From: a bacterium
Lineage (GTDB): Bacteria > Hinthialibacterota > Hinthialibacteria > Hinthialibacterales > Hinthialibacteraceae
Length of the DNA: 64,000 nt
NCBI GenBank assembly: GCA_016125385.1
Contig: WGLV01000022.1
Location: forward strand, 248,001 to 312,000
Direction of reading: 5' to 3'
The notes below the pieces were generated by a model. That model ran no database searches. It saw only the letters and a program-made list of their open reading frames with translations, and was not told the origin of the DNA. The position numbers and the translations under genes are program-made. Positions 18,384-55,447 of the stretch are shown in pieces (within the stretch, counting starts at the first letter, position 1; each line of letters opens with the position of its first letter).

Positions 18384-19886
18384 TCAGGCGGGGAAAGTCA
18401 TTTCTTTCACATATTCGTCCTGAAAGCGGGGGTGGGAGGATAGTGAGACGTGACGAACGCGTCGCAGGATAGAATCGATTTCAGTCCAGCGTTCTTCAGG
18501 CGAACAAAGCAGCATCTTCGCGCCGTGTAACGCGGCGTTGCCGATGGGTTCAATGATGGATTCGGCGGCGGGCAGGAGGCCGATTCTTATCGCCGAATCG
18601 ACATTGACGTAATTGCCGAACGCGCCGGCGAGATTGATTCGCTCGACGGAATCCAGGTCGACGTTCGCTATATCAAGCAGGATGCGGAAACCCGCCGCGA
18701 TGGCTCCCTTGGCGAGTTGCAACTGGCGGATATCCGCCTGGCTGAGCGAGACGCCGTCGCGCAACGGGATGCGGCGGCCGGCGGTCATGACGCGACCGGA
18801 TGGAGCTAGCCATCCGAGCTCAAGCGCGGCGGCCACGGCGTCAACCAGACCGCTGCCGCAGATTCCTTTCGCGGCGCCTCCGCCGATGGTCTCGCATTGA
18901 ATGGTTTCTCCTTCCGAGTGAGCGGATACGATGGCGCCGGAGCCGGCGCGCATGCCGTATTCAATGCGGCCTCCTTCGAACGCCGGCCCGGCGGCGGTGG
19001 ACGCGCAAAGCAATCCACCGGGCGTGGCGAGTATGATTTCTCCGTTGGTTCCAAGATCGAACAGGACGGCGGAGCCGTATTGATGAAGCCCCGACGCGAG
19101 GACGCCCGCCAGCAGGTCGCTGCCGACGAAGCCGCCCAGGCAGGGCATGAATTCCACGATCGCGTTGGGGGCGGCGGCGCATTCCACCTCGGCGGCGGAA
19201 AATCTCAAGCGGCCGGGCTGGGCGGGTTCGAAGGGAAATGCCGCCAGTGGTTCGGGAGAAAGACCGCCGTACAGGTGGTGCATCGCGGTGTTTCCAACCA
19301 GAACGATACGAGCGACTCGGGCGGGATCGGCGCCGGTCTGGACAATCAATGCGGCGATCAGATCATCGATCTGAAGGCGGATTCGGCGGGTCAGCGCGGT
19401 TAGACCGTCGCCCTGCAAGGCGTAATCGATGCGGCTGATAACGTCGGTGCCAAACTCGGCTTGCGCGTTGAGGGCGCTTTCCGAAGCCAGGCAGCGGCCG
19501 GTTTCCCGATCAATCAATTGCGCGACGAGGGTCGTCGTACCGAGGTCGATCGCCACGCCGAGGCCTTCGCCGGGCGTGAAGGCGAAGCCGCTTTCATCGG
19601 AGAGGATGGAGAGTTCCCATTGCGCCAGTTCAAGACTAACCTCGCCACGCACGCTGCACTGGCAGGCGAGACGCCATCCCTGAGCGAGTTCTTCCGGAGT
19701 GAGGCGGTTTCGCTGAGCCGGGGTGACGGGTAGATCGCCGCTCAGCACTTTGACCCGGCATCCCCGGCAGAGGCCGCGTCCGCCGCAGGGGAACTCAACG
19801 CCGTGAAGGAAGAGAATCTCTTTCAGCGAAGCGCCTTCGGCGGCAGCGATGGTTTTCCCCAGTGGACTCAGGTGAACGTCAGGCAT
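18384..19886 (-). CDS. RACo-type reductive activator of corrinoid proteins (2Fe-2S ferredoxin plus DUF4445/ASKHA)
   Basis: 500 residues. The N-terminal 85 residues are a plant-type 2Fe-2S ferredoxin with Cys34, Cys40, Cys43 and Cys75; the C-terminal 400 form the DUF4445 ASKHA ATPase with VAIDLGTTTLVAQLID, VLVGNTAMHHL, LFDLGTNGEI and GICGSGLVDA. Members such as RACo reduce inactive Co(II) corrinoid to Co(I) in an ATP-dependent manner in methyl-transfer systems. That fits the corrinoid operon at 48849-55065, although the genes are 29 kb apart. It follows the NCS2 permease gene by 27 bases, so the two may be cotranscribed. Family is secure; the partner protein is inference. Confidence 0.9.
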   Translation of the reverse strand: MPDVHLSPLGKTIAAAEGASLKEILFLHGVEFPCGGRGLCRGCRVKVLSGDLPVTPAQRNRLTPEELAQGWRLACQCSVRGEVSLELAQWELSILSDESGFAFTPGEGLGVAIDLGTTTLVAQLIDRETGRCLASESALNAQAEFGTDVISRIDYALQGDGLTALTRRIRLQIDDLIAALIVQTGADPARVARIVLVGNTAMHHLYGGLSPEPLAAFPFEPAQPGRLRFSAAEVECAAAPNAIVEFMPCLGGFVGSDLLAGVLASGLHQYGSAVLFDLGTNGEIILATPGGLLCASTAAGPAFEGGRIEYGMRAGSGAIVSAHSEGETIQCETIGGGAAKGICGSGLVDAVAAALELGWLAPSGRVMTAGRRIPLRDGVSLSQADIRQLQLAKGAIAAGFRILLDIANVDLDSVERINLAGAFGNYVNVDSAIRIGLLPAAESIIEPIGNAALHGAKMLLCSPEERWTEIDSILRRVRHVSLSSHPRFQDEYVKEMTFPA

Positions 19887-19913: not shown

Positions 19914-21239
19914 TCAAAACTTCATGAAGAAATAGCGGAAGATGAACATCGCCGTCAGAATCAGCAGCGTAACGTTCAGGTCTTTGAATCGGCCGGTGGC
20001 AAGTTTGAGCACGGTGTACGAAATCACGCCAAAGGCGATGCCTTCGGTGATCGAAAAACTGAACGCGATCAACACAATGGTGAGAAACGCCGGGATGCTT
20101 TCAGACGGATCGTCCCACGGGATCGTTTTGACCGCCCGCATCATCATGAAGCCGACCACGATCAGAGCTGGCGCGATGACCGGATAGACCGTTGCGCCGC
20201 CCGGCAGTTCAATGCCCGCGCCCAGCATGCGCGCGAGCGGGGCGAAAAACAGCGCGAGCAGAAACAGGATGGCGGTGACCACGCTGGCCAGACCAGTGCG
20301 AGCGCCGTCGGAAATGCCCGATGACGATTCCACGTAGCTGGTGACGGTCGAGGTTCCCATCAAGGCGCCAAAGACGGTGCCGATGGCGTCGGAGAGCAGG
20401 GCGGGCTGCGCGCGCTCCATCTCACCGTTCTTCATGAAGCCGCCCAGTTCAGCCACGGCGACCAGCGTACCGATGGTGTCGAACAGGTCGAGAATGAGGA
20501 AGACGAAGATGATGGTGAACAGCCCCAGCTTGAGGGCCTGGAAGGGTTGCAACTGGAAGAAGGTCGGCTCGAGCGAGGGTGGAGCGGAATACACGCCCTG
20601 AAAATGCAGCAGCCCCATGAACAGCCCCAGCGCGGCAGAGACGGCCATTCCGATCAGAATCGCGCCGCGAATGCGTAACGCGATCAGGATGGATGCCGCG
20701 AGCAGGCCAGCGCCGGAGACGTAGACGTATGGTTTCGTCAGCGAACCGATGGCGATGAGCGTGGCGGGGTTGTCGACCACGACGCCCGCCCATTGAAAGC
20801 CCAGCAACGCGATCATGAGGCCGATGCCCACGCCGATGGCCATTTTCAGCGAATAGGGAATCAGGTTCATGATGGCGCGACGGACGCCGAACGCGCTGAG
20901 AGCGATGAAAAGCAGCCCGCTGATGCAGACCGCGCCCAGCGCCGTGCGCCAGGGAATGCCCATGCCCTGACAGACCACGAACGCGAAGAATACGTTATGG
21001 CCCATCGCCGGCGCGAGCGCGATGGGGTAGTTGGCGAGAAAGGCCATCAAAAGAGTCGCGGCGGCCGACGACAGGCAGGTGGCCGCCATGACCGAATCGA
21101 AATCCATGCCGGTCGCGGAGAGAATCGCCGGCTGGACGAAGATGATGTACGACATGGTGAAGAACGTCGTCATTCCACCCACGATCTCGCGCTGGACGGT
21201 GGTGTTGTTTTCAGAGAGATGAAAGAGACGTTCGAACAC
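19914..21239 (-). CDS. NCS2-family purine permease (AzgA/PbuG-like)
   Basis: 441 residues with about 13 membrane segments. Family hallmarks: REIVGGMTTFFTMSYIIFV at the start, PIALAPAMGHNVFFAF (transmembrane 3) and GTSTVTSYVESSSGI (transmembrane 10). AzgA-type members import adenine, guanine or hypoxanthine by proton symport. The start is GTG at 21239, 7 bases after AGGAGG. Lies between a lipoprotein gene (97 bases upstream) and the RACo-like gene (27 bases downstream). Confidence 0.92.
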   Translation of the reverse strand: MFERLFHLSENNTTVQREIVGGMTTFFTMSYIIFVQPAILSATGMDFDSVMAATCLSSAAATLLMAFLANYPIALAPAMGHNVFFAFVVCQGMGIPWRTALGAVCISGLLFIALSAFGVRRAIMNLIPYSLKMAIGVGIGLMIALLGFQWAGVVVDNPATLIAIGSLTKPYVYVSGAGLLAASILIALRIRGAILIGMAVSAALGLFMGLLHFQGVYSAPPSLEPTFFQLQPFQALKLGLFTIIFVFLILDLFDTIGTLVAVAELGGFMKNGEMERAQPALLSDAIGTVFGALMGTSTVTSYVESSSGISDGARTGLASVVTAILFLLALFFAPLARMLGAGIELPGGATVYPVIAPALIVVGFMMMRAVKTIPWDDPSESIPAFLTIVLIAFSFSITEGIAFGVISYTVLKLATGRFKDLNVTLLILTAMFIFRYFFMKF

Positions 21240-48848: not shown

Positions 48849-49871
48849 TCAGGAATGCTCGGGCGTGTGAGTGTGGGCGTATTCGGCGAGGGCTTTGACG
48901 TTTTTCGGCGGGGTTCCGCGAGGAATTTCGCAGCCGGCGCCCACGATGTAGCGTGGCGCGGAATGCCGGTGACATTGGGCGATGGCTTCGGCGACGCTCT
49001 CGGGCGAACCGTTTTTCAAGACATCCACCGGATTGATATTCCCTAATAAAACCTGCTTTTCGCCCATGATCTCACGGGCTTCGTCCATCGGATTCATCCA
49101 GTCGAGATCGACGATCTCGCAGCCCAGCGACCCCATCCCTTCATACAGTTTTCGCGTTTTGCCACAAATGTGCAGGCGTACGAACGCGCCCATATGATGA
49201 AGCCCCTCGACCATCTTGCGCTGGGCGGGGAGGACGAATTCGTTGTATAGACGGGGACCCACCAGCGAAGAGGCGGCGTCGCCCACGCCGATGAGGTCGG
49301 CGCCGGCTTCCATCTGCGCGCGGGCGAACGCGAGTTCGAGCTCGATGACGAAGGCGAAGAGATCGTTTACGAATGCCGGGTCATCGTGAAAGTCGAGCAT
49401 TAGCGTATTGATGCCGCGCAGATCGGCGGCCTGGGCGCAGGGGCCTTCAACCCACCCTTCGATGAGCAGTTCGCCGCCCACGCGCTCGCGGAACAGGCCG
49501 GCCGCCTGGATGCGGTCGTGCATGCGTTCGCCTTTGTAGGGATCGACCGGATTGATCCATGCGAGTTGTTTTTTATCGCTCAGCAGGGCGTGTTTTTCAT
49601 TCAGCGCGGGCGGTTGATCGTCGAAATACTCGACGATGGCGCCGAGGTCGGCGGCTTCACGCGCGGGATCGGAGATACAGGAGACGTAATCGAATCCGAA
49701 CAGTTCGGCGGTTTTGATCTGAGCGCCGACGAGCGTCTTGTAATCGGTCGCGTACTGGCGGTAGGTGACGCCGAGGCAATCCGCCGCGAACATCATGGTG
49801 ATGGGCATCAGCGGAAGGCGGTCGGACGAGCCGTCTTCAATCATGTCGAGAATGCGCTCGCGTCCATTCAT
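48849..49871 (-). CDS. MtaA/UroD-family methylcobamide methyltransferase-like protein
   Basis: 340 residues of the uroporphyrinogen-decarboxylase fold group that moves methyl groups between a corrinoid protein and a thiol. The zinc ligands are clear: His234-x-Cys236 (LHICGKT) and Cys314 (GAGCEIPRGTP); the family helix NEFVLPAQRKM precedes them. The Arg/Asp set of true HemE is missing. Last gene of the corrinoid operon; its ATG overlaps the DUF1638 stop by 4 bases. Probably takes methyl from the methylated corrinoid protein at 51508; the acceptor (homocysteine, another thiol or tetrahydrofolate) is unknown. Confidence 0.88.
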   Translation of the reverse strand: MNGRERILDMIEDGSSDRLPLMPITMMFAADCLGVTYRQYATDYKTLVGAQIKTAELFGFDYVSCISDPAREAADLGAIVEYFDDQPPALNEKHALLSDKKQLAWINPVDPYKGERMHDRIQAAGLFRERVGGELLIEGWVEGPCAQAADLRGINTLMLDFHDDPAFVNDLFAFVIELELAFARAQMEAGADLIGVGDAASSLVGPRLYNEFVLPAQRKMVEGLHHMGAFVRLHICGKTRKLYEGMGSLGCEIVDLDWMNPMDEAREIMGEKQVLLGNINPVDVLKNGSPESVAEAIAQCHRHSAPRYIVGAGCEIPRGTPPKNVKALAEYAHTHTPEHS

Positions 49872-50620
49872 GAAGATGACTCCTCCAACTGAAAGATATC
49901 GCCCTGATACTCGGCGGCGAGACGCTGGCCGGGCCGCGCGACGCAGAAGCGGTCGTCATTGATCCACTCGCCATCAACCAGCGCCTGCATCAGCGACAAG
50001 TCGCCTTCGAGTTTTTCAAATACCCATCCGTGTTGAATCGCGCATTGCCGGGCGATATCTTCAAATTCCCGATTGGGTTCGATCCCCATCTCAATAAAGG
50101 CGCATTTGCGGTAGTGAGGCGTCAAATCGCCGATTTTATCGTACAGGTATTGAGCGTTTTCTTCTCCATATTTTTTGACCAGTTCCTCATACGACGCGCC
50201 CAGTCCGAGCTGATCGGGCAGGGGGAACTGGCTGAGACCGCCCGCCATTTCGCCGCGTTCGATCCAGCCGGTTGTTTTGAAGTAGACGCCGGGGTTTTCT
50301 TCAAAATAATCCTGATAGCGTTTGCGGCCGCCGAGGAAAACGGTGATGCAATCATGCGCGCGGGGGATGACAAGGGGGATGGTTCGCGCCTGAAGGCCGA
50401 GGGTTCCATTATTGCAGAGGCCGTAGCCGAGCACGATGGCGTCATAGGCGCTTTCATCGACGGCGTCGATCACCTGTCGCAGCCGTTCGGCCATTTTCAC
50501 GCCGCCCAGGTCGTGAAGGCGCTTGGGGAGGAACTCGACGTCGATCAGATTGGGAGAACGCGATATCACCGTACACGCTTCCCGGTAGAAGATTTCGCAG
50601 CAGATGAATTTAATCTTCAT
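49868..50620 (-). CDS. DUF1638 protein
   Basis: 250 residues. Start MKIKFICCEIFYREAC with three cysteines (7, 8, 16), then YDAIVLGYGLCNNGTLGL, IPLVIPRAHDCITVFLG and TGWIERG, the features of DUF1638. This family is found beside corrinoid methyltransferase genes in archaea and bacteria, with unknown role; the conserved Cys could bind metal or a corrinoid intermediate. Lies between the homocysteine methyltransferase-like (15-base gap) and MtaA-like genes (4-base overlap). Confidence 0.85.
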   Translation of the reverse strand: MKIKFICCEIFYREACTVISRSPNLIDVEFLPKRLHDLGGVKMAERLRQVIDAVDESAYDAIVLGYGLCNNGTLGLQARTIPLVIPRAHDCITVFLGGRKRYQDYFEENPGVYFKTTGWIERGEMAGGLSQFPLPDQLGLGASYEELVKKYGEENAQYLYDKIGDLTPHYRKCAFIEMGIEPNREFEDIARQCAIQHGWVFEKLEGDLSLMQALVDGEWINDDRFCVARPGQRLAAEYQGDIFQLEESSS

Positions 50621-50635
50621 GATGGACGCCTCTCG

Positions 50636-51508
50636 TCAGGCCGCGAGCGTTTTGCGCACGGCCCGGATAAATTCTGGATTGGTTCCGCAACAGCCGCCGA
50701 TGAACGACGCGCCCGCTTCGACGAGCGGTTTGACGTGCGCGGCGAACTGTTCTGGAGTGGTTTTGTAAACAACTTCTCCGTTCTCCATTTCGGGCAGGCC
50801 CGCATTGGCTTTGATCCAGATGGGGAGCGGCGAGGCGGCGTGAAGCCGCTGGCAGATCGGGATGAAACCCTCCACGCCCTGGCCGCAGTTGGAGCCGATG
50901 GCGTCCGCGCCGGCCTGGGTGAGAACCTCCACCGCCTGTTCGGGGGTGGTTCCCATGACGGTGCGATCCTTTTTTTTGCCCGCGCTGTAGGTCATGCAGG
51001 CGACGACCGGCAGGCCGGTGCGTTTGGCCGCACGGACGGCGGAGGCGGCTTCGGCGGGATCGAGCATGGTCTCAACGACAAGCGCGTCTGCTCCCCCTTT
51101 TGCGAGGGCTTCAGCCTGTTCTTCGAACGCGGCGTCCAGCTCGTCCTCACTGGTCTCACCTGTCATCAGCATCAGGCCGGTGGGGCCGATGGAAGCGAAG
51201 ACGCGGGCGCGCCCGGCGGCAGCGCGGCGCGAGATTTCGACTCCGGCGCGGTTGATTTCAGCGGCACGATCGGCGAGCCCATGTTTTTTCAGAGTGAGAC
51301 GGTTGGCTCCGAAAGTGTTGGTAAGAACGATCTGAGCGCCCGCCTCCGTATAGGACCGCGCGACTTTTTCGACCCGATCGGCGTGAGTGAGGTTCCATGC
51401 GTCGGGCGAGTCGCCCATCGGCAGGCCGCTCATGTACAACAGAGTGCCCCAAGCGCCGTCGGTGACGACGGGGCCGCTGGCAAGGAGTTCAGAGAAAAGG
51501 GCGTTCAT
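50636..51508 (-). CDS. Homocysteine S-methyltransferase-like protein (MetH N-terminal/BHMT family)
   Basis: 290 residues. (beta/alpha)8 barrel with zinc-binding Cys208 (GSNCGQG) and Cys273-Cys274 (GGCCGTN), plus DGAWGTLL and LTNTFGANR of the first strands. Family members methylate homocysteine from betaine, S-methylmethionine or a corrinoid. Its gene overlaps the corrinoid-protein gene by one base, so it likely demethylates that protein and gives methionine, or conversely takes methyl from a thioether or amine substrate. Confidence 0.9.
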   Translation of the reverse strand: MNALFSELLASGPVVTDGAWGTLLYMSGLPMGDSPDAWNLTHADRVEKVARSYTEAGAQIVLTNTFGANRLTLKKHGLADRAAEINRAGVEISRRAAAGRARVFASIGPTGLMLMTGETSEDELDAAFEEQAEALAKGGADALVVETMLDPAEAASAVRAAKRTGLPVVACMTYSAGKKKDRTVMGTTPEQAVEVLTQAGADAIGSNCGQGVEGFIPICQRLHAASPLPIWIKANAGLPEMENGEVVYKTTPEQFAAHVKPLVEAGASFIGGCCGTNPEFIRAVRKTLAA

Positions 51509-52152
51509 CAGGCCGCTCCCCGAGCGGTGAGTTCCCGCGCCTTCTGTACGGCGGAGCGCGCGTTTTCGCCATAACCGTCGGCGCCGATCTCGTCGGCGAA
51601 CTGTTGGGTTACGGGCGCGCCGCCCACCATGATTTTGACGGAGTCACGCAGCCCGGCCGCGTCAATGGCGTCGATGGTTTTTTTCAGCGCGGGCATGGTG
51701 GTGGTGAGCAGGGTGGAGATACAGACGAGGTGCGGTTTGACGGTTTTAACCGCTTCCACGTATTTCTCCGGGGGGACGTCGACGCCCAGATCGTGAACAT
51801 CGAATCCGGCGCCTTCGAGCATGGAGGCGACCAGATTCTTGCCGATATCGTGCAGATCGCCCTTGGCGGCGCCGATCACGGCGCGGCCTGACGACGGCGC
51901 GCCAGTCGCGGTCAGCCGCGGGCGGATGAGTTCCATCGACTCTTTCATCGCGCGCGCGGCGAGCAGCATTTCCGGGATGAAGTATTCTTCTTCTTCAAAC
52001 AGGCGGCCTACTTCGTCCATCGCGGGGACGAGGCAACCGGTGACGATCTGAAGCGGATCGGTGTTTTCACCGAGCGCTTCTTCGGTGATGCGGCGCGCCG
52101 AGGTGTGATCGCCGTTGATAACGGCCTGGCGCAGAGCGTTGAGATCGGCCAT
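51508..52152 (-). CDS. Corrinoid (B12-binding) methyl-carrier protein, MtbC/MtaC-like
   Basis: 214 residues. Helical cap domain 1-85 and a B12-binding Rossmann domain with D99-L-H101-D-I-G104 (GDLHDIGKNLV), where His101 is the lower cobalt ligand, followed by ISTLLTTTMP and MVGGAPVTQQFADEIGADGYG. It carries the methyl group between two methyltransferases in the cytoplasm. Encoded between the UroD-like and homocysteine methyltransferase-like genes; probably kept active by the RACo-type protein at 18384. Confidence 0.94.
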   Translation of the reverse strand: MADLNALRQAVINGDHTSARRITEEALGENTDPLQIVTGCLVPAMDEVGRLFEEEEYFIPEMLLAARAMKESMELIRPRLTATGAPSSGRAVIGAAKGDLHDIGKNLVASMLEGAGFDVHDLGVDVPPEKYVEAVKTVKPHLVCISTLLTTTMPALKKTIDAIDAAGLRDSVKIMVGGAPVTQQFADEIGADGYGENARSAVQKARELTARGAA

Positions 52153-52309
52153 GATGCGGTTCCTCCAGAACGCCGCACGGGTAATGAGGCCGCGGGCGGT
52201 GGTTGCTGTGTTTTTTTACCGCGTCTTCTTGCGGATTACGCTACCTGACGGGGCGGATTTTGTCCAGCGAATTTCCATGAGATCCCCGAGTGATGCTTTT
52301 CGTTTCACT
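52153..52309. other. Gap inside the corrinoid operon
   Basis: 157 bases between the UroD-like and corrinoid-protein genes, the only real gap in the operon. No B12 or SAM riboswitch motif and no terminator were found, so read-through or an internal promoter is possible. Confidence 0.4.
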
Positions 52310-53572
52310 TTATTTTGTTCCGTTGAATTCATGTACCGCGTCAATCATGGTGGCGATGTTTTCAACCGGGGTTCGGGCCTGAATATTATGGATGGTGTTG
52401 AACACAAAGCCTCCGCCGCATGAGAATATTTCACAACGGCGCAGCGTTTCTTCGCGTACATCGCCGGGCGAGCCAAAAGGCAGCGTTTTTTGCGTATCGA
52501 TACCGCCGCCCCAGAAGGTGATGCGTTCGCCGAATTCATTTTTCAATTCGCCCGCCTCCATATTGGCGGCCGAGCATTGAACGGGATTCAGGATGTCGAA
52601 ACCGCACTCAATAAAATCGGGGATGAACTTGCGCACGGAACCGCAGGAATGCTTAAACGTCTTCCACGGCGTATTGGCGTGAATCCATTCGTTGATCGTG
52701 GTATAAAAGGGCGTCCAGAGCGACTGGAACGTTTTGCGTGAACAGAAGGTCCCGGTCTGGGCGCCGAAATCGGTTCCGCAGACGAACACGACGTCGATGG
52801 AATTCTTCGCCGCCGCCGCGATGCGGGCGAGGTTGGCGAGCGCGATTTGGGTCTGGCGTTCGAAGAGCTCCCGGATCAATTCGGGGCGGGAGGCGATGGA
52901 CATGTACCACTCGGCGACGTCGCGAATTCCCTTGGGATATTTCAACTGAACGGCGGGCACATGCGCGATGTCTCCCAGCGCGGTTCCACCCAGCGAGGCG
53001 ACCACCGCGCGCCCGGAGGCTCGAGCCTGGGCCGAGGCGCTGGCGATATACGCGACGGTTTCATCGGCGATGGGCCCGTATTCTTCCAGGTTGTCTTCCA
53101 CCTTCAGATTGGCTTCATCCAGCGGCGGCTGGCGGATGATGGCGTCGAAAAAATAGCCATCGTTCGGCATACGCGCGCTGGGAGGCGCATTGAGATCGCC
53201 CTGGGGGTGCATGTAAATCACGCCATCTTCACCGATGGTGACGTTGAAATCGGCCGGAACCAGCACTTCGAGGCCGTCAGGCATGCGCCATTCCTTCCAG
53301 CCGTTCAGGGTGGAATGGCCGAACATGGTTTTGTGTGGAAACATCGCCTGTGCGTCGACGCCGAGTATTTCGCGCAAATCTTCGTCAATCCATCCCAGCA
53401 TCTGATACGGTTCATGAACTTTGACGGGTCCGTTGGCGATGCCGTAATACTCTCGCAGCGCCGCGACGCAACTCACGTGGATGCCGCTGACGCTGGTCGA
53501 TCCGAGATCAAGGGGCACGCGATCAGGCGCACGGTGCTCGATCGCGCCTAGAATCCGCTCGCGGCTGTTCAT
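52310..53572 (-). CDS. UroD-family methyltransferase, candidate substrate:corrinoid methyltransferase
   Basis: 420 residues, longer than MtaA types by about 80. UroD-fold start MNSRERILGAIEHRAPDRVP, zinc-type ligands His308-x-Cys310 (KHSCGS) and Cys385 (FSCGGGFV). The insertion between residues 70 and 160 is unlike the MtaA-like neighbour. ATG overlaps... its start codon overlaps the stop of the symporter gene by 4 bases, which couples it to import and suggests that it takes the methyl group from the imported compound. Substrate unknown. A 157-base gap separates it from the corrinoid-protein gene. Confidence 0.85.
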   Translation of the reverse strand: MNSRERILGAIEHRAPDRVPLDLGSTSVSGIHVSCVAALREYYGIANGPVKVHEPYQMLGWIDEDLREILGVDAQAMFPHKTMFGHSTLNGWKEWRMPDGLEVLVPADFNVTIGEDGVIYMHPQGDLNAPPSARMPNDGYFFDAIIRQPPLDEANLKVEDNLEEYGPIADETVAYIASASAQARASGRAVVASLGGTALGDIAHVPAVQLKYPKGIRDVAEWYMSIASRPELIRELFERQTQIALANLARIAAAAKNSIDVVFVCGTDFGAQTGTFCSRKTFQSLWTPFYTTINEWIHANTPWKTFKHSCGSVRKFIPDFIECGFDILNPVQCSAANMEAGELKNEFGERITFWGGGIDTQKTLPFGSPGDVREETLRRCEIFSCGGGFVFNTIHNIQARTPVENIATMIDAVHEFNGTK

Positions 53573-55065
53573 GACGCGGCCTCGGTAACGGCTTCACGGA
53601 CGGAGGAAGTTTGACTCTCCATCTCATCGCCGAAGATGCGTTCAATGAAAGCGTTCTCGAAAGGACGGGTGATCAGACTGACGACAGGGATGAGAAGAAT
53701 CGGCGTCAGCATGGCGATCGCGCCCGCCAGCGGGATGCCTTTGGGACCAAGATAGCCGCTCAAGCCGATGGAGATTCCCAACCCCGCAAGCAGCCCGGTA
53801 ATGGCGGCGGTTCTGGTGGTTCGTTTCCAGAACAGGCCGTAGACGTAGGGGCCGATGAACGATCCCGCCAGCGCGCCCCACGAGATGACCATGAGATTGA
53901 CGATAATGGCGGGCTTCATCAGCGCGGTATACAGCGAAAGCGCAACGAAGACGCCGCAACAGACGCGCATCATCATCACGACGCGGCCTTTAGAGCGCTC
54001 GACGGGAAACAGGTCGCCGATCAGATCGATGACGATCGCCGAACTGGATACCAGGACGAGCGACGAGAGGCTCGACATCGAAGCGGAAATCACCAGCAGG
54101 AGGATAACCATCGCCACCCAGGCGGGCGTGTGTTCAGTCAGCAGACGCGGGATGAGCTCGTCGATGTTGGCGGGCGGCGTCTGGTAAAAGAGATGGGTCA
54201 ACGCGCCGGTATAATAGGCGCCAAACGTCATGACGACGGCGATCGCGGTGCAGACCAGGGCGGCGCGTTGGATGGAGGATTCATCCTTGATGGAATAAAA
54301 CTTCTGCACCATCTGAGGCATGCCCCACGGCCCCAGGCTGGTGATCAGGACGAGGCTGGCCAATGTCACCCACCCGGGGATTCCACCTTTCGCCAGCAGG
54401 CCGGGGGCGTACTCTGGAGCCATCAGTTGTCGCGTCGCTTCACCGAAGCCGCCCGCCTGGGAGACCAGCACGGTGACCATGATGGCGACGCCGATCAATA
54501 CGACGACGCCCTGAATCAGATCGGTGATCAACACCGCCAGGTAGCCGCCCATGATGAGATAAACGCCGGTGAGAATCGCCATGAAAGCCAGCGCATACGC
54601 ATAGGGGATCTGGAGGTTGACTTCAAAGAGATAACTCAGCCCCATGTACACCGACGCGGTGTAAGGAACGAGAAAGGCGAAGATGACGATCGCGGAAACG
54701 ATTTTAAGGAACCGGCTGTTGTAACGAGCCGCGAGAAACTCGGGCATCGTCATCGCGCCGAGGCGGTCCGTCATGCGTCGTGTGCGCGGGCCGAGAATCT
54801 TCCATGCGAGAAAAACGCCGACAAAGGCGTTGCCCGCCACGATCCACATCGTGTGCAAGCCGAAGCCCCAGCCCAGCTTGCCGGCATAGCCAATGAAGAG
54901 AACGGCGGAGAAATAGGTTGAACCGTACGCGAAGGCCGACAGCCACGGCCCGATATTGCGCCCCCCCAGAAAGAAGTCGCTGACGGTTTTGTTGCGGCCC
55001 ATGCAGAGCCAACCCACAAGCAACATTACGGCGATATACAGCACGACAATCACGATCTTGATCAC
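53569..55065 (-). CDS. Sodium/solute symporter (SSS family), first gene of the corrinoid operon
   Basis: 498 residues with 13 membrane helices. KTVSDFFLGGRNIGPWLSAFAYGSTYFSAV in the first helices and ISASMSSLSSLVLVSSSAIVIDL in helix 8 are SSS hallmarks and hold the Na+ site; it is closer to the PanF/PutP kind than to the symporter at 44130. The start is GTG 55065, 5 bases after GGAGGAG. Overlap with the UroD-like gene links transport and demethylation, so the solute is probably the methylated substrate (for example an amine, betaine or other methyl compound; this is inference). Confidence 0.92.
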   Translation of the reverse strand: MIKIVIVVLYIAVMLLVGWLCMGRNKTVSDFFLGGRNIGPWLSAFAYGSTYFSAVLFIGYAGKLGWGFGLHTMWIVAGNAFVGVFLAWKILGPRTRRMTDRLGAMTMPEFLAARYNSRFLKIVSAIVIFAFLVPYTASVYMGLSYLFEVNLQIPYAYALAFMAILTGVYLIMGGYLAVLITDLIQGVVVLIGVAIMVTVLVSQAGGFGEATRQLMAPEYAPGLLAKGGIPGWVTLASLVLITSLGPWGMPQMVQKFYSIKDESSIQRAALVCTAIAVVMTFGAYYTGALTHLFYQTPPANIDELIPRLLTEHTPAWVAMVILLLVISASMSSLSSLVLVSSSAIVIDLIGDLFPVERSKGRVVMMMRVCCGVFVALSLYTALMKPAIIVNLMVISWGALAGSFIGPYVYGLFWKRTTRTAAITGLLAGLGISIGLSGYLGPKGIPLAGAIAMLTPILLIPVVSLITRPFENAFIERIFGDEMESQTSSVREAVTEAAS

Positions 55066-55447
55066 AGGTGCTCCTCCAAAGGTGAATAATCGATCGAAAG
55101 AAGGACGCGAACTCATGAGAGCGGTTTCACGTCTCATTAAAATTTAACATGTTTTTGGGAGAAAATCCCTACCCAAAGCATTATGAATCATGAAAAATAT
55201 TCCTGTTACCCGGGCGCCGACGGATTTTATTATGGTCAACATCTCGGTTTTCCTGTATTTACGCCGATCGTACCAAGGCGCATCACAAACGTTGTTTCTT
55301 TACTCGCTTCACGGCGAATGAATGAATGTCATTTGTTACTTTGTTACACTGTATATATGGGAAGGCTGTATCGGGTATGTCTTTCCGCTCAAGCATCCAT
55401 CGGTGTTTCACTCAATCTTTCCCCTTCGAAAATCTTCAGGAGATGAC
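55066..55447. other. Divergent intergenic region
   Basis: 382 bases. Contains a tandem direct repeat TTTGTTAC-TTTGTTAC (55332-55347) just upstream of TATATA (55352-55357), a possible promoter/activator site for the plus-strand gene, and a short GGGA-TTTTC-TCCC hairpin near 55161-55173. An 87-codon frame at 55183 looks spurious. Confidence 0.45.

Follow-up and report, generated by a model that had tools for sequence, protein, structure and literature searches.

Where does the methyl group come from, and where does it go, in a corrinoid methyl-transfer operon whose putative donor enzyme has no close relative among the known enzymes compared? The question is raised by six genes in a 64,000-nucleotide stretch of contig WGLV01000022.1 (hereafter the window), from a bacterium of the Hinthialibacteraceae (GenBank assembly GCA_016125385.1). 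As the original prediction described, all six open reading frames lie on the minus strand, and Pfam supports the domain assigned to each: a Na+/solute symporter of the SSS family, a UroD-superfamily methyltransferase that we call UroD1, a stand-alone corrinoid (B12) protein, a homocysteine S-methyltransferase (Hcy-MT), a DUF1638 protein and an MtaA-like methyltransferase. It is fair to call these genes mostly overlapping, with overlaps at three of the five junctions (4, 1 and 4 nt, the first between the symporter and UroD1 genes), a 15 bp gap at one, and a 157 bp gap between the UroD1 and corrinoid genes, in which no terminator or promoter was found on the coding strand. No riboswitch was found by Rfam upstream of or within the operon, one tRNA being the sole match. 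We consider it probable that these genes form a corrinoid methyl-transfer hub, with UroD1 on the donor side, homocysteine as acceptor and methionine as product.

A scan of GTDB contigs found 302 places that encode relatives of UroD1. The best 80 of these, from which the similarity figures are taken, share about 55–63% identity over nearly the full length, and span Acidobacteria, Omnitrophota-labelled genomes, Planctomycetota, Verrucomicrobia, Firmicutes, Spirochaetes, Aminicenantes, KSB1, Proteobacteria-labelled genomes and others; one bacterium with UroD1, Mariniphaga sediminis (L114), has been cultivated. At 16 loci at least three of the four partner genes are near UroD1 (genes on GC-rich loci were called with a composition-scored caller). 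The exact order UroD1–corrinoid protein–Hcy-MT–DUF1638–MtaA-like is present at L045, L073, L077 and L116, the last from a relative in the same family, and at L110 and L112 with one or two extra genes inserted. Because the five genes recur in the same order in Acidobacteria, in a deltaproteobacterium (without DUF1638) and in the same-family relative, the arrangement is not a matter of chance. Further, the UroD1 gene directly precedes the corrinoid gene across many unrelated lineages. In L116 a gene for a RACo-type corrinoid reductive activase directly follows the operon, and the genes beyond UroD1 match the flank of the window's operon; RACo homologues likewise adjoin the core in L158, L159, L160 and L220. 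What is conserved thus comprises UroD1–corrinoid protein–Hcy-MT–DUF1638–MtaA-like together with an activase of the RACo type. In the window the activase gene (18384..19886, minus strand; 2Fe-2S, Raco_middle and RACo_C_ter domains; PF14574 6.2e-66, PF17651 7.5e-48, PF00111 5e-10) is about 29 kb from the operon, which makes the word "complete" in the prediction inexact; the prediction of a corrinoid methyl-transfer operon stands. A xanthine/uracil-type permease is encoded directly upstream of the activase gene on the same strand (19914–21239).

The symporter (522 amino acids; 53569..55137, with an alternative start at 55065, minus strand; PF00474 8.4e-55) is absent from L116, the nearest relative with the operon, and from every other full operon. 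The idea that the operon has its own Na+ symporter is thus not borne out, and we rejected the symporter as a part of the system: relatives keep the core order, but not the proposed symporter–UroD1 pair. Since the operon and flanks of L116 otherwise match, the symporter is a lineage-specific addition rather than a defining part, gained in the window's lineage or lost in L116. Its nearest PDB sequence is vSGLT (4.6e-17), followed by the putative sodium:solute symporter 5nv9 (2.7e-14), and its best NCBIfam model is PutP (201 bits, below the cut-off).

UroD1 (420 amino acids; 52310..53572, minus strand; PF01208 6.6e-15) matches the URO-D Pfam profile over residues 215–416 only, that is, in its C-terminal half. 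The AlphaFold2 model is confident (predicted local distance difference test score, pLDDT, 93.8), and the best PDB folds found by Foldseek are those of MtaA (4ay8/4ay7, TMt 0.69–0.70, 16% identity). At the sequence level, identity to MtaA is 25% across 132 residues (35 bits), the score on TIGR01463 (MtaA/CmuA family) is 32.6 bits against a cut-off of 235.4, and TIGR01464 (HemE equivalog) gives no match at 1e-3; the likely HemE of the genome is another protein (C12, 405 bits to PF01208). Neither tblastn of CmuA-holding plasmids nor blastp matched UroD1 to CmuA, and UroD1 carries no fused corrinoid domain. In a PDB profile search, MtaA, HemE and CdmB each gave a marginal match (CdmB, E = 0.014). 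In a superfamily tree, which like the other comparisons was made without OdmB, VdmB and MtoB sequences, UroD1 sequences make up a separate clade with support of 100/100, and MtaA, Mlps, CmuA, HemE and the MtaA-like protein of the operon all fall outside it. The model scores, blastp/tblastn searches and tree led us to reject HemE, CmuA and MtaA as identities. Judged by sequence, UroD1 represents a compact orthologous family (55–67% identity across many phyla), and in none of the comparisons run was it close to HemE, CmuA, MtaA, Mlps or CdmB. The original prediction had set it apart from the known MttB, MtaB and MtmB substrate methyltransferases, and it does not group tightly with any characterised enzyme among the references.

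The metal site of UroD1, H308-x-C310 ... H395, is invariant at all three positions in the alignment of the family (A3). It is of a His-Cys-His kind, in contrast to the His-Cys-Cys of thiol-type enzymes, with His395 standing where those have Cys. At zinc, known UroD-family S-methyltransferases carry His-Cys-Cys, but in O-methyltransferases one Cys or both are replaced or lost (PMC10418091). The likely HemE also has His at the third position, and His395 may therefore simply be inherited.

The other core proteins keep their motifs. The corrinoid protein (51508..52152, minus strand; B12-binding PF02310 1.5e-30, cap PF02607 3e-24) has the predicted DxHxxG as D99-L-H101-D-I-G, and scores 207 bits on pyl_corrinoid and 177–200 bits on MtgC-type models, below the cut-offs of the latter. 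Hcy-MT (50636..51508, minus strand; PF02574 3.9e-68), of the MtgE/MetH module-1 type, keeps Cys208 and Cys273-Cys274. The MtaA-like protein (48849..49871, minus strand; PF01208 2.8e-59) has a full H234-x-C236 ... C314 site aligned with the zinc positions of MtaA 4ay7; it is below the cut-off of TIGR01463 (165.9 bits), and beyond its own clade it matches Mlp-like proteins best. The DUF1638 protein (49868..50620, minus strand; PF07796 1.6e-35) has counterparts in order-level relatives that are fused to ASKHA-type domains (Hydantoinase/oxoprolinase, Hydantoinase_A), as in a protein of about 960 amino acids at L165:6121-8994 (G009); G007 and G008 have open frames of the same length. Price et al. 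showed that DUF1638 and a RamA-like protein are needed for B12-dependent methionine synthesis, and proposed no specific role (PMC5764234); the fusion supports a part for DUF1638 in ATP-driven corrinoid reactivation.

We infer that the methyl group would flow as follows. The symporter, as a local addition, would import a methylated substrate, and UroD1 would act as the substrate-specific methyl donor enzyme (MT-I), passing the methyl group to the Co(I) corrinoid protein. Hcy-MT, as the main acceptor enzyme, would transfer it to homocysteine to yield methionine, while the MtaA-like protein, with its thiol-type site, might offer thiol methyl groups another way in or out. Re-reduction of inactive Co(II) corrinoid, at the expense of ATP, would fall to DUF1638 and the RACo activase. 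The corrinoid protein, Hcy-MT, DUF1638, MtaA-like protein and RACo would make up a general unit, and UroD1 would be one of the different donor enzymes that plug into it.

The choice of homocysteine as acceptor follows from the rest of the genome, which is 95.8% complete. PF00809 occurs there only in a FolP-like protein (338-amino-acid frame) and in MetH, with no free-standing acceptor, and PF02007 has no match. Because a free-standing methyl-corrinoid:tetrahydrofolate (H4folate) enzyme of known type is missing, homocysteine is the likeliest acceptor, and the methyl group would then be used assimilatively rather than for energy. The same absences make H4folate-linked methylotrophy unlikely in this organism. 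The methionine-linked genes comprise a full-length MetH, an Hcy-MT in a 634-amino-acid open frame (C9) and the operon Hcy-MT; given MetH, we rejected the module as the sole methionine synthase.

The core also occurs apart from UroD1. In three genomes of the same family (G003, G004, G005), corrinoid–Hcy-MT–DUF1638–MtaA-like–RACo stands alone, with UroD1 elsewhere in the genome. In 34 genomes UroD1 is an orphan, with no corrinoid gene nearby, and 32 of them encode an operon-type corrinoid protein elsewhere, several within a complete core; the core, without UroD1, adjoins RACo in L220 and L222 and, lacking the MtaA-like gene as well, in L221 and L225. DUF1638 is present in 17 of the 34, against one of 14 well-known control genomes. 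Only one genome in the phylum of the window has no UroD1-like match, and it is without the corrinoid protein and DUF1638 as well. Other putative donors appear beside the same kind of corrinoid protein: in G011 and G013 it is found with MtaB and two further UroD proteins, along with DUF1638 and RACo, and the genes for UroD1, the corrinoid protein and MtaB lie side by side in L070. Since MtaB adjoins a corrinoid protein of the same type, the data suggest that the hub could also draw on methanol. These observations fit a corrinoid hub of general use that takes methyl groups from more than one donor enzyme, and a parallel is known from anaerobes in which one core MtgC goes with many MtgB-like enzymes (PMC12478193). 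The MtaB-type methanol:corrinoid methyltransferase genes by same-type corrinoid proteins are at L163:9956-11266, L164:10357-11739 and L070:12085-13455. With regard to the acceptor, other lineages differ: G025 has a pterin-type protein next to RACo and the corrinoid gene, and in G004 a formate-tetrahydrofolate ligase gene lies about 40 bp downstream of the core RACo gene (L159:2441-4153).

Among known systems, the split methionine synthase/MtgCDE type, which includes DUF1638 and a RamA-like activase, comes closest in layout. Genetics has established such a split synthase, with both of these proteins, in Phaeobacter (PMC5764234); it and the MtgBCDE system of Ruegeria (PMC12478193) share with our module a stand-alone corrinoid protein, a stand-alone PF02574 Hcy-MT, DUF1638 and a RamA-like activase. 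In contrast to MtgBCDE, the operon has no stand-alone pterin-binding MtgD (PF00809), having UroD1 and the MtaA-like protein instead, with MetH also in the genome; nor did Pfam find an MTTB-family MtgB (PF06253) among the six operon proteins, the only part of the genome searched for it. Type 1 mlp clusters (PMC10418091) share an MtaA-like His-Cys-Cys protein, a corrinoid protein, a Ram/RACE activase and the lack of a nearby H4folate methylase. They are defined by at least two Mlps with a corrinoid protein and Ram within 2 kb, whereas here there is one Mlp-like protein, the activase is about 29 kb off, UroD1 is far from Mlps, and Hcy-MT and DUF1638 belong to the unit. OdmB, VdmB, MtvB, MtoB, CdmB (PMC8630106, PMC13222342) and CmuA have in common with it a UroD-fold MT-I acting on a corrinoid protein and an ATP-dependent activase; UroD1, however, has no close sequence similarity to CmuA or CdmB, is separate from the corrinoid domain and is not accompanied by an H4folate acceptor. 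MtaABC/MtbABC share the type of corrinoid protein and the MtaA-like enzyme, with MtaB by the same kind of corrinoid protein in G011, G013 and L070, but the acceptor here is apparently homocysteine rather than coenzyme M, and in the operon, to which the Pfam search for it was confined, there is no MtaB, MtbB or MtmB substrate subunit. The claim that the operon's logic equals that of MtaABC, MtbABC or MtgB systems is not supported: no substrate subunit of their kinds was found in the operon and no free-standing H4folate acceptor in the genome, and the acceptor domain is an Hcy-MT. In its working the module resembles a split methionine synthase/MtgCDE set that has a new donor enzyme and one more enzyme of the Mlp-like kind, but it lacks defining features of each named system.

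What compound might UroD1 demethylate? Its same-operon neighbours elsewhere include sugar porters, GFO/IDH/MocA oxidoreductases and glycoside hydrolases (GH) of families GH36, GH2, GH28, GH1 and GH29, and each of these families had fewer than two members among distant genes of the same loci, which served as a control set. Three transporter clusters (sugar-porter, MFS or SSS) contribute 17 of 445 within three genes of UroD1 versus 1 of 523 farther away (p = 3e-5). The neighbouring porters pass the sugar-porter cut-off and are XylE-like; in an alignment, one keeps Q168, Q288, Q289, N294 and W392, with Leu in place of Q415, all six of which we take to be sugar-binding residues of XylE. In Subdoligranulum, the genes among which distant UroD1 homologues are placed encode a GH2 enzyme, a ROK protein and an alpha-L-rhamnosidase. 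Because its neighbours elsewhere are sugar porters, oxidoreductases and glycosidases, our leading guess, tentative and drawn from other genomes rather than from the window, is that the substrate is an O-methylated sugar or a sugar-like compound or cyclitol. It is possible, although we would sooner expect otherwise, that UroD1 is the first member of a family of O-demethylases that act on sugars or cyclitols and depend on a corrinoid, which would work without O2 on substrates freed by glycosidases and imported by porters, with the methyl group reaching methionine via the hub. Plant and algal polysaccharides commonly contain O-methylated sugars, and an oxygen-dependent route for removing the methyl group is known, with a P450 acting on 6-O-methyl-galactose (PMC10033563). 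Our literature search found no paper on corrinoid sugar demethylation. If the guess is right, an O2-independent corrinoid route ending in methionine would explain the use of O-methyl sugars by soil and sediment bacteria, and would link DUF1638, the parts of the split methionine synthase and a large UroD family that has no name within a single system.

Several observations weigh against the hub with UroD1 as donor. The genome has a full-length MetH, and hence does not need the module as its sole methionine synthase; DUF1638 is missing from half of the orphan-UroD1 genomes; and some relatives place MtaB or a pterin-type protein beside the corrinoid protein, so that acceptor and donors vary. The lone carbohydrate hint in the window is the symporter's weak best match to vSGLT, its best NCBIfam model being PutP. 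That UroD1 works on the donor rather than the acceptor side is something we infer, and the MtaA-like enzyme could be the real donor enzyme. The latter is the crux of an explanation that we regard as unlikely, in which a split methionine synthase serves salvage, the MtaA-like protein demethylates a methyl-thiol or methyl-selenide, Hcy-MT makes methionine, and UroD1 is a chance neighbour or minor partner. The thiol-type site and Mlp-like best matches of the MtaA-like protein agree with this, as do the cores kept without UroD1 in G003–G005 and others and the link that Kountz and Balskus drew between Mlp clusters and methyl-S/Se metabolism (PMC10418091). However, chance explains neither the position of UroD1 directly before the corrinoid gene in many unrelated lineages nor its co-occurrence with the corrinoid protein even when unlinked (32 of 34).

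We give very little credence to two further explanations. Were the symporter to import a betaine, UroD1 might replace MtgB in demethylating a betaine-like or quaternary amine, as the below-cut-off PutP match (201 bits) and the service of Ruegeria MtgCDE to glycine betaine (PMC12478193) would allow; yet the symporter is not conserved, the operon has no MtgB-type domain, and the neighbours of UroD1 elsewhere are sugar porters and glycosidases. Equally improbable is a methoxy-aromatic O-demethylase of the OdmB/VdmB/MtvB/MtoB kind. UroD1 is of the same superfamily, its lost third Cys suits an O-methyl substrate, and the PDB profile search reaches CdmB, a relative of MtoB, but at E = 0.014 this similarity is no better than that to HemE or MtaA. 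Moreover, known bacterial O-demethylases end on H4folate, for which the free-standing acceptor families were not found in the genome, and the neighbours are sugar genes rather than aromatic ones.

Apart from the hub with UroD1 as its donor, which we continue to prefer, other uncharacterised UroD-family proteins came to light. Contig C37 of the same genome encodes a second UroD-family and corrinoid pair (L134:9507-11603), whose UroD protein has no His-x-Cys and is about 22% identical to UroD1 over a short stretch. A third UroD-family protein (cluster C7) recurs near UroD1 at L087:11893-12948 and eight other loci; it is about 340 amino acids long, with a His-Asp-Cys motif and a Cys near the third site. 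The Subdoligranulum variabile cluster (L171:1942-11317, labelled plasmid), from a gut bacterium, is a compact glycan locus with three UroD-like methyltransferases, encoding an AraC regulator, a GH2 enzyme, two UroD-family proteins, a ROK protein, a third UroD protein and an alpha-L-rhamnosidase.

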